Part shown: one piece after another, positions 58,989 to 64,000 of the stretch
Position numbering within the stretch: position 1 is the stretch's first letter
Layout of the letters: each line of letters begins with the position of its first letter
DNA from: an uncultured Gellertiella sp.
GTDB lineage: Bacteria; Pseudomonadota; Alphaproteobacteria; Rhizobiales; Rhizobiaceae
Length of the DNA stretch: 64,000 bases
NCBI RefSeq assembly: GCF_963457605.1
Contig: NZ_OY735139.1
Span: forward strand, 992,001 to 1,056,000
Direction of reading: 5' to 3'
The notes under the pieces: generated by a model
Told to the model about the DNA's origin: nothing
Database searches by the model: none
Seen by the model: only the letters and a program-made list of their open reading frames with translations
Made by a program: the position numbers and the translations under genes

Positions 58989-59540
58989 TCACACCTGCTC
59001 TCTTGGCGTTATATGATAGACACCCAATCTTATCTGGTAAGCACTAAATAATTTCGCAACATTGCGAAGCTGCGCCTCGCCGATACCCCGGCGAATTCCA
59101 AACCGGCCCGAGCGATTGGAAATGACCCAGGGACCATCTTCGTGCCCGGGGTCAAAGGTGATCTCGCCCGCAATTCTGGCCGTCACATATCCATCCCTAT
59201 AGCCCAAAACGGCGGGATGGCCAAGTTTCTCCTCTCCTGCCTGCATTTTCACATAGGAATGGGGCAGCAGATAGCGCAATTTTCCAGAGGTCTTTTCCAC
59301 CACTTCTTCGTGGGCAAACATGATCGCCCCTGCCTCATTCATCACCCAGAGAATGGGGGAAGTTTCATGCACGACGCTCGACAGCCGGGTGACAAGATGG
59401 GAATCCATATAGGCCTTGAGCGAGGCGGCGCTTGCAGCATCAAGACTATTCAGGCTCCGGGGCTGGTAGCGCTGTTCGGATTCGGTCACCGCGGCCAGCG
59501 GCTTGGTGGGGCGACCATAAATATCGTCTAAATTAGCCAT
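58989..59540 (-). CDS. Unknown protein with GEI...SNRSGRFG segment
   Basis: 183 aa from ATG 59540 (GGGAGG upstream; a GTG three bases earlier is too close to that site). The first 40 residues look disordered; the rest alternates short helices and strands. The most distinctive part is HPAVLGYRDGYVTARIAGEI followed by WVISNRSGRFG, then a helix (GEAQLRNVAKLFSAYQIRL split here). Segments like AGEI...SGR/HY occur in some bacterial effector and toxin-associated proteins, but I cannot assign a family. It is the first gene of the pair. Confidence 0.6.
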   Translation of the reverse strand: MANLDDIYGRPTKPLAAVTESEQRYQPRSLNSLDAASAASLKAYMDSHLVTRLSSVVHETSPILWVMNEAGAIMFAHEEVVEKTSGKLRYLLPHSYVKMQAGEEKLGHPAVLGYRDGYVTARIAGEITFDPGHEDGPWVISNRSGRFGIRRGIGEAQLRNVAKLFSAYQIRLGVYHITPREQV

Positions 59541-59584
59541 CACGCCTCCCGGTCACTCTCGTATATGAGGTGTTTCCGGGAGAA

Positions 59585-61096
59585 TCAAGACACCCGCATT
59601 TCCCCCTGCCCGCCATGCCCCTCCTCGCGCCTGATCAGGTCCCGCACCGCCTCCACGCAATCGGAAAGCGGACTGTCATCGGCATAGGGGGGAACGAGGG
59701 CGCGGATGCGGCGGTGGAGGGTGTCGGTGCCTTCGGCCCTTTTCCCGGCAGGCTCGCGGAAATCATGGGCCTGGGCGGCCGCGAGGAATTCGATGGCAAG
59801 CACATATTCGGCATCATCGACGATCGTCAGCAGCTTGGCCGCCGCAGCGGTCGGGTTGGCGAGAAAGTCTTCCTGAAGCCCTGACGTGATGCCGCCATCG
59901 GTGGAGGCGGGCATGGCCTGACGCCTGATGCCGTTCACAAGGCCTGCGGCGGTATATTGGGCGATCATCAGGCCGGAATGGCTGCCGGCATCGCTGGCGA
60001 GAAAGGCCGGGAGGTCGCTGACCAGAGGATTGATCAGCCGGTCGAGCCGCCTTTCGCTGATCATCGCCACCTGCGCCAGCGCCACCGACAGGCTGTCGGC
60101 GGCAAGCGCCAGCGCCGGGGCAACCGCATGGGCTTCCGACGAGACGAGAGGCGCATCGGGCGTGCCGGAAAGGGCGGGATTGTCGGTGACCGAGGCAAGT
60201 TCCTGATCCACCACCCGGGAAGAACCGGCAAAGACATCGCGGGCCGCGCCATGCACATGCGGCACGGCGCGAAGGCTCAGCGCATCCTGCGTCCGGCGGC
60301 CTTCGGCGGCTGCGATCAGGCCGCTGCCGTCGAGAAGCCGCCGCAGCGTTGCGGCAACGTTAGCCATGCCCGGCGACGGGCGAAGCGCGATGACATCGGC
60401 ACGGAAGGCCGCCATCTGGCAGCCAGCCGCTTCCAGCGTCAGCGCGGCAATGTGATCGGCCCAGTCGAGAAGCCGCGCGGCACGGGCAAGCGCCAGCGCC
60501 GACAATCCGGTGGCGCAGGCCGAGCCATTGACGAGGCTCAGGCCCTCCTTGGCGCGCAGCGTCAGCGGCTGAAGGCCGATGGCAGCGAGCGCATCGCGCC
60601 CGGAAAGCCTTGCCCCCCGGACCCGCGCCCGGCCTTCGCCGATCAGCAGCAGGGCAATCGCCGCATTGTGCTGGAGATAGCCGACCGAGCCTTTCGAAGG
60701 CACCTCGGGCACCAGATCATGGTCCAGAAAGCCGAGATAATGCCGCAGGATTTCAGGCCGCACGCCGGAATGGCCATGGGCGAAATTGGCGATCTGCGCG
60801 GCGATGATCGCCCGGACCTCCGGCGCTGGCAACAGCGGACCGACGCCGGTCGCATGGCTGAACAGGATATGCCGGGACAGGGCTGCCTGCTGGTCGCGGC
60901 TGACCACGGTGTCGCTGAGCGCCCCGACGCCGGTATTGATGCCATAGGCCCGGACACCGCTTTCGACGATGCGCTCGACGATCAGCGCTGCCTTTTCCAC
61001 CCGCGCCCAGGCGTCGGGCGACAGCGACAGGCTTTCGCCTTCGGCGATGCGCGCGACATCGCGCCAGCCGAGACCACGATCAAGGACAATGGCCAT
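59585..61096 (-). CDS. Histidine/aromatic ammonia-lyase homologue lacking the MIO Ala-Ser-Gly triad
   Basis: 503 aa, normal length and overall fold for the family. Conserved: YGINTGVG (Tyr51), SHATGVG (His81), SLVNGS (Asn190), SLRAVP (Arg276), SVTDNP and LQED (Glu409). But where classical enzymes read GASGDLAPL and cyclise Ala-Ser-Gly to the MIO electrophile, this protein reads GSVGYLQHNAAIAL (residues 136-149), with no Ser available and about three residues missing; the Tyr equivalent to 280 is Leu273. It cannot work as ordinary HutH. It ends an amino acid transporter operon, one base after the ATPase gene; hutU, hutI and hutG are absent. Confidence 0.85.
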   Translation of the reverse strand: MAIVLDRGLGWRDVARIAEGESLSLSPDAWARVEKAALIVERIVESGVRAYGINTGVGALSDTVVSRDQQAALSRHILFSHATGVGPLLPAPEVRAIIAAQIANFAHGHSGVRPEILRHYLGFLDHDLVPEVPSKGSVGYLQHNAAIALLLIGEGRARVRGARLSGRDALAAIGLQPLTLRAKEGLSLVNGSACATGLSALALARAARLLDWADHIAALTLEAAGCQMAAFRADVIALRPSPGMANVAATLRRLLDGSGLIAAAEGRRTQDALSLRAVPHVHGAARDVFAGSSRVVDQELASVTDNPALSGTPDAPLVSSEAHAVAPALALAADSLSVALAQVAMISERRLDRLINPLVSDLPAFLASDAGSHSGLMIAQYTAAGLVNGIRRQAMPASTDGGITSGLQEDFLANPTAAAAKLLTIVDDAEYVLAIEFLAAAQAHDFREPAGKRAEGTDTLHRRIRALVPPYADDSPLSDCVEAVRDLIRREEGHGGQGEMRVS

Positions 61097-61097
61097 G

Positions 61098-61868
61098 TCA
61101 GCTCCCGAAATTGCCGATGAACTGCCGGAAGGCGGGCGTCGCCCCCTCGCCGAACATCACCTCCGGCGCGCCGGAGCTTTCGATCAGGCCTTCCTTCATG
61201 AACACCACCCGGTTGGAGACATTGCGGGCAAAGCTCATTTCATGGGTGACGACGAGCATGGTCATCCCCTCCTCCGCCAGCGCCCGCATGACGCGCAGCA
61301 CTTCGCCGACCAGTTCCGGATCGAGCGCCGAGGTCGGCTCGTCAAACAGCATCACCTTCGGCTTCATCGCCAAAGCCCGGGCAATTGCCGCGCGCTGCTG
61401 CTGGCCGCCGGAGAGATGGGCGGGATAGGCATGGCGCTTGTCGGCAATGCCGACCTTTTCCAGCAACTGTTCGGCCTCCGCGATGCAGTCGGCGCGCGGC
61501 CGTTTCAGCACATGCACCGGCCCTTCGATGAGGTTCTCGAGGATGGTCATGTGGGACCAGAGATTGAAGGACTGGAACACCATGCCAAGCTCGGAGCGGA
61601 TATGATCCACCTGCTTCTGGCTTTCCGGGCGGCTCCTGCCATTCCTGTGCACCATGCGGATCACCTCGCCATCGACGAGAATCTCGCCGGCATTGGCGAT
61701 TTCGAGCAGGTTGATGCAGCGCAGGAAGGTGGATTTGCCCGAGCCGGAGGCCCCGAGCAGCGAGATCACGTCGCCATCCCTGGCATCGAGCGACAGGCCC
61801 TTCAGCACTTCGAGCTGGCCGAAACTCTTGCGGATATTGCGGACGGAAAGGCGGATTGCTTCGGACAT
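61098..61868 (-). CDS. Polar amino acid ABC transporter ATP-binding protein (HisP-like)
   Basis: 256 aa from ATG 61868, the usual HisP/GlnQ length. Walker [13 protein letters not shown]-loop VFQSFNLW, signature [15 protein letters not shown], Walker [16 protein letters not shown]-loop VTHEMSFA. It powers uptake of a polar amino acid through the two permeases encoded upstream. One base separates its stop from the start of the ammonia-lyase homologue. Confidence 0.95.
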
Positions 61869-61902
61869 GATGGTTTGAGATCCTGAAAGGGGGCGGACGG
61901 GC

Positions 61903-62610
61903 TCAGCCATGGGAAACTGCCGGGGCGGCGCGCAGATGCCGGGAGAGCCTGTGTTCCAGCAGGCCAAGCGCCTGCAGGATGAGGAAATTCAGCGCGAGAT
62001 AGATGAGGGCGGCGCAGAGAAACACTTCCGTGGTGCGATAGGTCTCGTGGATCAGCTTCTGGGCAATGCCGGTGACCTCCCAGACGGTGACGAGGCTGGC
62101 AAGCGCCGTCGATTTCATCATCAGCACGATTTCGGTCGAATAGGCGGGCAAGGCGTGGCGAAAGGCGATCGGCGCCAGGATGCGGCGCACCAGCAGGAAG
62201 CCCGACATGCCGACCGAGCGTGCCGCCTCGATATCGCGGGGCGAGACGGCACGAATGCCGCCGCGAAAGATTTCCGCCGAATAGCCCGCCGTGCAGAGCG
62301 CCAGCGACAGCACCGCGCAGACGAAGGGCTCGCGCAAGAGCGGCCAGAGGAAGCTGTAGCGGATGACGGCAAACTGCCCGAGCCCGTAGAAGATCAGGAA
62401 CATCTGGATCAGCAGCGGCGAGCCGCGAAAGACGAAGATATAGGCCCGGGCAATGGCACCCAGCAGCGGATTGCCACCAACCCGCATCCAGACGATCAGC
62501 AGTGCCAGCAGCCCGCCTGTCGCGACCGACAGCGAAAACAGCCCGAGCGTCATCGGCACGGCCTTGAGCAGGGTGATCAGCGTCGAGGAGAGAAAGTCCA
62601 GATCCATCAT
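61903..62610 (-). CDS. Amino acid ABC transporter permease (HisM-like)
   Basis: 235 aa with about five membrane helices. The cytoplasmic EAA loop reads [22 protein letters not shown], shortened to [14 protein letters not shown], and contacts the ATPase; [16 protein letters not shown] is typical of the HisM/GlnP family. The C-terminus falls outside the membrane ([11 protein letters not shown]). Seven bases after the other permease gene. Confidence 0.93.
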
Positions 62611-62617
62611 CCCGCTC

Positions 62618-63346
62618 CTACGCCTTGCCCATCGCCGCGGACGGCATGCTCTTGTTCGCCCGCCGCTCCGCCCGGTTGAACACCTGGTCGGAAAAGCTGG
62701 TCAGCAGCAGGTAGAGACAGCCGCCGACAATGAAGAACAAGAAATACTGGCGCGTCGAGCCTGCGGCGACCTGGCTGGTGCGCATCAGTTCGGCAAGGCC
62801 GGTGACCGATATCAGGGCGGAATCCTTGAGGCTCAGCTGCCAGACATTGCCAAGACCGGGAATGGAGAGCCGCAGCACCTGCGGAATGATGATCCGGCGA
62901 AAGCGCAGGCTCCGGCCCATGCCGATGGCGGAGGCCGCTTCCAGTTCACCTTTGGCAATGGCCAGATAGGCACCGCGAAACACTTCCGCCTGATAGGCTC
63001 CAGAAATGATGCCGACGGCCAGTGCGCCGGCGGCAAAGGAGGGCAGGCCGAGAAAGCTTTCATAGCCCATCCATTGCCCGAAGGCGGTGACCGCGGAGGA
63101 GCCGCCGAAATAGATGAGATAGATCACCAGCAGTTCCGGCACGCCGCGAAACACCGTCGTATAGGCATTACCGATGGCACCCAGAACCGCAATGCCCGAC
63201 AGCCGCGCCGAGGCGACGAGAGCGCCAAGCACCGCGCCGATGGCAAGCGCCGCCGCCGTGACCGCGAGCGTGGTGAGCGTTGCAAGAACCAGCAGCGCCC
63301 CCCAGCCATTTTCGCCAAAGCCGATCAGGCCCAACAACTGCATCAC
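62618..63346 (-). CDS. Amino acid ABC transporter permease (HisQ-like)
   Basis: 242 aa with about five membrane helices, FRGVPELLVIYLIYFGG and the EAA loop ELEAASAIGMGRSLRF. It pairs with the HisM-like protein to form the channel. It follows the binding-protein gene after a 67-base gap that contains a stable hairpin. Confidence 0.93.
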   Translation of the reverse strand: MMQLLGLIGFGENGWGALLVLATLTTLAVTAAALAIGAVLGALVASARLSGIAVLGAIGNAYTTVFRGVPELLVIYLIYFGGSSAVTAFGQWMGYESFLGLPSFAAGALAVGIISGAYQAEVFRGAYLAIAKGELEAASAIGMGRSLRFRRIIIPQVLRLSIPGLGNVWQLSLKDSALISVTGLAELMRTSQVAAGSTRQYFLFFIVGGCLYLLLTSFSDQVFNRAERRANKSMPSAAMGKA

Positions 63347-63413: not shown

Positions 63414-64000
63414 TTATTTCGGGCTCACATCCGTCTTGAACCACTTTTCAGACAGGCTCTTCACCGTGCCATCGGCAAGTGCCGACTTGATGGCTGTGCT
63501 GAACAGGTCGCGCAGGTCCGTATCGGCCTTGCGCACGCCGAGCCCCTCGCCCTCGCCCCAGATCGAACCGGCAATCTGCGGGCCGGTAAAGACCATCGCC
63601 CCCTTGGCGGCATCGAAGGCGCTGGTGAGGTAGACCGCATCGTCAAATACCAGATCGATACGGCCGCTCTGCACGTCGAGATCGCGGTCGGCGCTGGTCT
63701 TGTATTCGCGGATGGTGGCGACATCGCCGAAATTGTCGTCGATGAACTTGGCATAGACGGTGGCGGTCTGGATGCCGATGGTCTTGCCCTTGAAGGCTTC
63801 CTTCAGCGCCGCGATTTCCTTCACGCCGGTCTGGCCTGTCGTCATGGAAATGGTGGCACCGGTGCCGACCGCATTGGCAAGCGGGCTGTCCTTGGCGGTG
63901 GCGAATGCAGCAGGCGTTGCCGCATAGGGAACGGTGAAATCGATGACCTTCCTGCGCTCGTCGGTGATCGACAGCGCATCCATGATGACGTCGAACTTGC
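63414..64000 (-). CDS. Amino acid ABC transporter substrate-binding protein (5' end outside window)
   Basis: 195 C-terminal residues of a family-3 periplasmic binding protein; the frame runs off the window end. KFDVIMDALSITDERRKVIDF, shortened here to MDALSITDERRKVIDF, carries the Arg that holds the ligand carboxylate, followed by AYAATP-like FTVPYAATPAAF, TIGIQTATVYA and LVFDDAVYLTSAF. Lysine/arginine/ornithine/histidine-type members share these motifs. It is the first visible gene of the operon, and its ligand would tell what the ammonia-lyase homologue acts on. Confidence 0.92.
   Translation of the reverse strand, partial: KFDVIMDALSITDERRKVIDFTVPYAATPAAFATAKDSPLANAVGTGATISMTTGQTGVKEIAALKEAFKGKTIGIQTATVYAKFIDDNFGDVATIREYKTSADRDLDVQSGRIDLVFDDAVYLTSAFDAAKGAMVFTGPQIAGSIWGEGEGLGVRKADTDLRDLFSTAIKSALADGTVKSLSEKWFKTDVSPK

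Follow-up and report, generated by a model that had tools for sequence, protein, structure and literature searches.

A separate histidase-like clade without the MIO-forming Ala-Ser-Gly, predicted to release trimethylamine from hercynine in Pseudomonadota

We predict that a histidase-like protein encoded beside an ABC importer in an uncultured Gellertiella sp. is a trimethylamine-lyase that acts on hercynine and gives urocanate, which is the explanation that best fits the evidence and, in our judgment, probably the correct one. The gene lies in the window, by which we mean the whole 64,000-nucleotide stretch of contig NZ_OY735139.1 (assembly GCF_963457605.1) that was analysed. Hercynine (N-alpha-trimethylhistidine, histidine betaine) is the precursor of ergothioneine. 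A broader proposal, for which we see the chances as even, is that the Hut pathway has a widespread, undescribed branch. In Pseudomonadota, hercynine would be used by means of a trimethylamine-lyase in which MIO was lost separately from its loss in ergothionase and a GYLxH loop took its place. This same enzyme would be encoded by the hutH1 that Pseudomonas can do without and by the rhizobial hutH copies beside hutXWV-type importers, and some rhizobia would burn the trimethylamine by Tmm and Tdm, encoded once in the same cluster.

The features on which the argument draws are as follows.

59585..61096, minus strand: HAL-fold lyase without MIO, of the HutH1-type clade (503 aa; PF00221, 473 bits), predicted hercynine trimethylamine-lyase
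60650..60691, minus strand: codons for residues 136-149, GSVGYLQHNAAIAL, which replace the MIO-forming GSVGASGDLAPL loop
60278..60280, minus strand: codon for Leu273, equivalent to HAL Tyr280 and Leu in Treponema denticola ergothionase too
61098..61967, minus strand: ATPase of an ABC importer of the polar amino acid type, HisP-like (327 bits, under the equivalog cut-off of 466); the coordinates are those of the first-start ORF, and translation probably begins at a more internal codon
61903..62610, minus strand: permease of the same importer type
62618..63346, minus strand: permease of the same importer type
63414..63998, minus strand: substrate-binding protein, truncated at the window end (complete gene, L017:5415-6449)
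L017:6448-7209, outside the window and past the binding-protein gene: divergent HutC-type repressor (TIGR02018, 293 bits, cut-off 220)
L019:3317-10751 (G000:C2, about 2,625,300-2,632,750), in the window's genome: apparently complete ergothioneine-use operon

The MIO-forming serine is absent from the window lyase, since GSVGYLQHN stands where histidase has GSVGASGDL. In the alignment to histidine ammonia-lyase (HAL) of Pseudomonas putida, Ala142 becomes Tyr140, the three residues Ser143-Gly144-Asp145 are deleted, Leu273 stands at Tyr280, and Tyr53, His83, Asn195, Arg283 and Glu414 correspond to Tyr51, His81, Asn190, Arg276 and Glu409. The initial annotation had read this loop as lacking Ala-Ser-Gly (without stating the strand, which is minus), had found no equivalent of Ser143 and about three residues deleted, and had listed Leu273 and the five retained residues; the alignment agrees with it throughout. 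It was also right that the frame is intact (ATG start, no internal stop) and that the gene follows the transporter ATPase gene by one base, the ATPase ORF ending at 61098 and the lyase starting at 61096. Behind the lyase lies a 184-aa ORF (58989-59543, minus strand) with no Pfam matches, whose sole NCBIfam match (19 bits against a cut-off of 220) means little.

Profile matching and structure comparison both assign the lyase to the aromatic amino acid lyase fold (PF00221). Its AlphaFold model has high confidence (mean pLDDT 89.9) and lies nearest to HAL in a Foldseek search (P. putida 1b8f, TM 0.91), with ergothionase 6s7j at TM 0.88. The window protein also scores higher against HAL chains (224 bits) than against ergothionase (187 bits). 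The window protein misses both NCBIfam HutH cut-offs (440 vs 539 and 449 vs 524 bits). One of four further clade members scanned, L063 of the Pseudomonas group, passes them narrowly (541.7 vs 539.15 and 552 vs 524), and the other three fail. The NCBIfam models matched by these five proteins are confined to HutH and other aromatic amino acid lyases or mutases.

Across the 34 aligned proteins out of 60 in the clade, Tyr51, His81, Asn190, Gln270, Arg276 and Glu409 are invariant. In every one of these rows Tyr stands at Ala142, Leu at Tyr280, Ala or Pro at Phe329 and Tyr at Val386, and Ser143, Gly144 and Asp145 are deleted; Leu at position 280 is likewise found in T. denticola ergothionase and in all six of its relatives. 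With the residue roles that we take from the HAL literature (imidazole, carboxylate and amine-side contacts), the contacts to the imidazole and carboxylate are kept in the 34 rows and the amine-side residues are changed. The substrate should therefore be a histidine that is changed at its amino group. The initial annotation had supposed a chemistry other than that of histidase without settling on one; the best candidate would be a trimethylamine-lyase for histidine betaine.

The clade is a separate, conserved subfamily tied to the adjacent importer, as tree, conservation and neighbourhoods agree and as the initial annotation had supposed. The loop pattern GS[VA]GY[LI]xH is common to all 60 members collected, which stand at 45-72% identity and come from 58 genomes, the window's among them, and 2 plasmids; this rules out a one-off mutation, chance, and the sequencing or assembly error that had been named as a possible refutation. 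Among 199 Rhizobiaceae genomes, 31 carry a member at 512 bits or more, and the next best match scores 266 bits; within the window's genus, four of five genomes carry one. The clade extends to other Alphaproteobacteria and other classes of the phylum: at E<=1e-90 it was found in 9 of 385 genomes drawn from the class and 23 of 398 drawn from the phylum, where both draws count the window's genome and some other genomes recur in the phylum draw. Matches at 60-80% occur in at least 159 plasmid records, two of which were taken into the neighbourhood set. In annotated plasmids the group is named HutH, the filing that had been foreseen. One clade relative (G013:C23:285326-286828) has an in-frame TGA.

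In a tree of 34 of the 60 clade proteins, 25 ASG-type HutH proteins and 7 ergothionase-type proteins, with the loop columns dropped, the loop-sharing homologues form a single clade (support 100/98) apart from both other groups, the separation from MIO-bearing HutH that the initial annotation had proposed to check. Because the root was placed by choice on the ergothionase-type rows, two of which are long branches, the branching order among these groups is less certain than the clade, and for that reason we infer, rather than observe, that MIO was lost in the clade independently of ergothionase.

Gene context connects the clade to import and to histidine use. Neighbourhoods of up to 25 kb were collected for 53 of the 58 clade genomes (absent are G362, G460, G886, G836 and G463) and for the two plasmids; neighbour families were formed by BLAST clustering and each named from one representative, HutD from existing annotation. 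The initial annotation had suggested that the homologues always sit with the same transporter, which did not hold: three unrelated kinds of importer lie upstream, namely PAAT (polar amino acid type) in 25 of the 55 neighbourhoods, QAT (glycine-betaine type) in 18 and BCCT in 2, the last two assigned from one representative per protein, and none was recognised in 10. Importer type changed at least three times on the tree, counted on the 28 of 34 rows with a recognised importer. A quaternary amine is the substrate feature shared by QAT and BCCT importers.

At least one hut gene occurs in 47 of the 55 neighbourhoods, 16 of which, the window's included, have a HutC-family gene alone; HutU, HutI, HutF or HutG is encoded in 31, and no hut gene was found within the 25 kb or less of the remaining 8. 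The HutU of Rhizobium etli is a genuine HutU (973 bits against a cut-off of 375) and falls short of the thiourocanate hydratase cut-off (686 vs 930). Since hut and HutC genes surround the clade genes, the product would be urocanate. Members L055-L058 of genus g150 have a different context: a PhyH-domain gene and MacB/HlyD exporter genes occur in all three neighbourhoods seen (L117, L122, L123), a LysR regulator in two, and hut genes in none of the three. Because of this difference, the g150 group may act on another substrate.

The clade enzyme is hardly needed as a histidase, because 56 of the 58 clade genomes carry a HutH-scoring gene besides it (ASG was checked in those that were placed in the tree). 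The two exceptions are G002, which is 77% complete, and G855. The latter, rated 100% complete, has the clade gene with a BCCT transporter and hut genes and no close HutH (L205, L207, L209); its L207 is an ASG-bearing relative at 36% identity, and its L209, roughly 3 kb away from the clade gene, is a further HAL-like gene whose loop reads GSLGAADL.

In named Pseudomonas loci the two genes stand side by side. The order hutX, hutW, hutV, clade gene, HutH occurs in 80 of 80 loci, with the ASG-type HutH about 1.5 kb downstream of the clade gene, and an NCS1-type transporter gene occupies the hutTu place in 79; these loci are the best of 465 confirmed matches to a Pseudomonas query, several from one species, and so are no sample of the genus. 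In L107, L118 and L120, three loci from a different genus of the same family, HutH is placed elsewhere in the cluster. Median dN/dS, calculated on motif-anchored, ungapped stretches (2846 of 3160 pairs usable), was 0.094 for the clade gene and 0.052 for HutH. The Pseudomonas clade gene is under purifying selection, with somewhat weaker constraint than HutH, and a decaying gene is thereby ruled out for this part of the clade. Passages of a review (PMC8871633) give hutTu, hutXWV and hutH1 between hutU and hutH in P. fluorescens SBW25 and describe hutH1 as dispensable for growth on histidine. Judging from its relatives, SBW25 HutH1 would have a loop without ASG. We take PA5093 to be a histidase-like gene. 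It is named hutG in passages of PMC12772324, where its deletion leads to growth defects on histidine and urocanate. The discrepancy would come from a disputed name or from a polar effect of the deletion. A Sinorhizobium meliloti hutH2 mutant reportedly grows somewhat more poorly on histidine.

Some clade genomes also encode the means to use trimethylamine. In one Rhizobiaceae locus (L082), the lyase is followed on the same strand by a SolA-family gene, an ORF without a family match and a TMAO demethylase gene (1275 bits, cut-off 1100), and a trimethylamine monooxygenase gene (827 bits, cut-off 675) lies on the opposite strand 6.6 kb from the lyase. Among the 199 Rhizobiaceae genomes, the monooxygenase is present in 14 of the 31 that carry the clade gene compared to 19 of 168 others (Fisher p = 3e-5, uncorrected for genome size), and the demethylase in 14 of 31 compared to 29 of 168 (p = 0.001). 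Counted by genus, the monooxygenase figures are 9 of 20 compared to 10 of 89 (p = 0.001); eight genera have both states, and the four that are informative are all concordant for monooxygenase and clade. Across all 21 clade genomes with a monooxygenase gene, its distance from the clade gene is less than 20 kb in one (G120), about 24 kb in G171 and G097, and about 1 Mb in the window's genome. The monooxygenase was not found in 20 of the 24 clade genomes outside Rhizobiaceae.

We favour hercynine because the altered amine side of the active site, the hut context, the QAT and BCCT importers and the trimethylamine genes point to it together. The importer next to the lyase gene would bring in hercynine, the lyase would eliminate trimethylamine to give trans-urocanate without MIO, and the ordinary Hut enzymes would take urocanate on to glutamate, with HutC controlling the unit in response to urocanate. 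In the active site, Tyr51 would remove the beta proton, and Tyr140, His143 and Tyr381 may line the space vacated by MIO. No electrophile would be required in this elimination, since a quaternary amine leaves more readily. By analogy with ergothionase, loss of trimethylamine from hercynine would fit the loss of MIO. Several observations count against this reading: the window's own importer is of the PAAT type, the most frequent one, and has opine-binding relatives; the monooxygenase is seldom close to the clade gene and is mostly missing outside Rhizobiaceae; 8 neighbourhoods show no hut gene and 10 no recognised importer; and growth defects are reported for the PA5093 deletion and the S. meliloti hutH2 mutant.

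Three other readings are kept beside hercynine because the importer in the window is of the PAAT type and has an opine-binding relative. The lyase might act on N-alpha-methyl- or N-alpha,N-alpha-dimethylhistidine and release methylamine or dimethylamine with urocanate. A SolA-like gene (N-methyl amino acid oxidase family) in 8 of the 55 neighbourhoods points to N-methyl amino acids, and the 25 polar amino acid importers suit a substrate that is not quaternary. We nevertheless regard this as unlikely, given the betaine-type importers in 20 neighbourhoods, the trimethylated substrate of the MIO-less precedent and, on general chemical grounds, the fact that a secondary or primary amine would presumably be scarcely better as a leaving group than ammonia. 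The binding protein in the window is nearest to octopine- and nopaline-binding proteins, not to betaine binders; among solved structures the octopine-binding protein 5ore comes closest to it, and in R. etli CIAT 652 the importer genes carry the annotation occ. These observations would suit cleavage of histopine or some other histidine opine, or of a histidine with a different N-alpha substituent, into urocanate and an amino acid. However, QAT and BCCT importers adjoin other clade members, the clade reaches Pseudomonas, where crown-gall opines would not be expected, and protonated secondary amines are presumably poor leaving groups without MIO, so that such a substrate seems improbable. A non-catalytic paralogue, for example a sensor or a partner of HutH, would account for the missing ASG triad and, from passages of PMC8871633, for the dispensability of SBW25 hutH1 on histidine. 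It would be hard to reconcile with the invariance of the Tyr53, Arg283 and Glu414 equivalents in 34 of 34 rows, with the dN/dS of 0.094 against 0.052 for HutH in the same 80 Pseudomonas loci, or with the repeated changes of importer type, and we give it little credence. An ordinary histidine ammonia-lyase, either MIO-free or with MIO formed from other residues, is very improbable: the PF00221 match and the score of L063 speak for it, but the serine and the two residues that follow are missing and not replaced, and nearly all of the genomes have a HutH-scoring gene besides.

The remaining candidate is ergothionase, acting on ergothioneine, its sulfonate or its S-methyl form. Passages of PMC13405746 describe T. 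denticola ergothionase (6s7j) as a MIO-less HAL relative that releases trimethylamine, and, citing another paper, ascribe ergothioneine sulfonate breakdown to Agrobacterium radiobacter. The clade shares its fold, its lack of MIO and Leu at HAL position 280, but HAL chains outscore it against the window protein, and the clade stands apart in the tree from the seven ergothionase-type rows, the two long branches among them. Tyr replaces ergothionase Lys383, and Asn195, which is Ser in the T. denticola enzyme, is kept. The window's genome moreover has its own Ert operon, which encodes another MIO-less, ergothionase-type lyase (L003, loop GSIGCADIG) together with thiourocanate hydratase, thiohydantoin desulfurase, hydantoin-5-propionate amidohydrolase and N-carbamyl-glutamate amidohydrolase (ErtD and ErtE among them), all four over NCBIfam cut-offs. 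Thiourocanate hydratase is over its cut-off in 15 of the 58 clade genomes and is never near the clade gene, lying on another contig in 13 and at least 0.7 Mb away in 2, and the one HutU tested beside a clade gene, that of R. etli, is of the urocanate type. The separate operon with its own lyase rules out ergothionase by context, and overall we hold this assignment to be quite unlikely. Another HAL relative without ASG (L012, loop MSVGASDIVAMSQ) has ergothionase as its nearest PDB entry.

If the hercynine assignment is correct, it gives a substrate to a family that annotated Rhizobium plasmids list as HutH and explains why one of the two hutH genes of Pseudomonas is dispensable on histidine. 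It would also open a bacterial route for hercynine, add a source of trimethylamine, and provide a second working histidase fold that is free of MIO, in which the need for MIO could be tested by varying the leaving group alone. A literature search for hercynine with urocanate and trimethylamine gave no matches, and no hercynine lyase was among the literature matches listed, with subscription papers mostly outside the search; one may already be published.

Compared with known systems, the clade resembles HutH (P. putida 1b8f; EC 4.3.1.3) in its fold, its imidazole and carboxylate contacts and its hut context, and differs in the missing ASG, in the substitutions at Tyr280, Phe329 and Val386 and in forming its own clade. 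Passages of PMC8871633 place SBW25 hutH1 in the same gene order as is found in the named Pseudomonas clade loci. T. denticola ergothionase is similar as a HAL fold from which the ASG residues are absent, with Leu at 280, and loss of a trimethylated amine is presumed for the clade as well. Unlike the clade, ergothionase has a loop deletion of one residue rather than three, and its Lys383 and Arg57 are absent from the clade, whose neighbours are Hut and not Ert genes. Finally, S. meliloti HutH2, which we take to be encoded in an operon with hutXWV, resembles the clade in having a second 'histidase' gene behind a QAT importer, an arrangement shared by 10 of the 11 loci L094-L104, and the S. meliloti hutXWV importer is specific for betaines.
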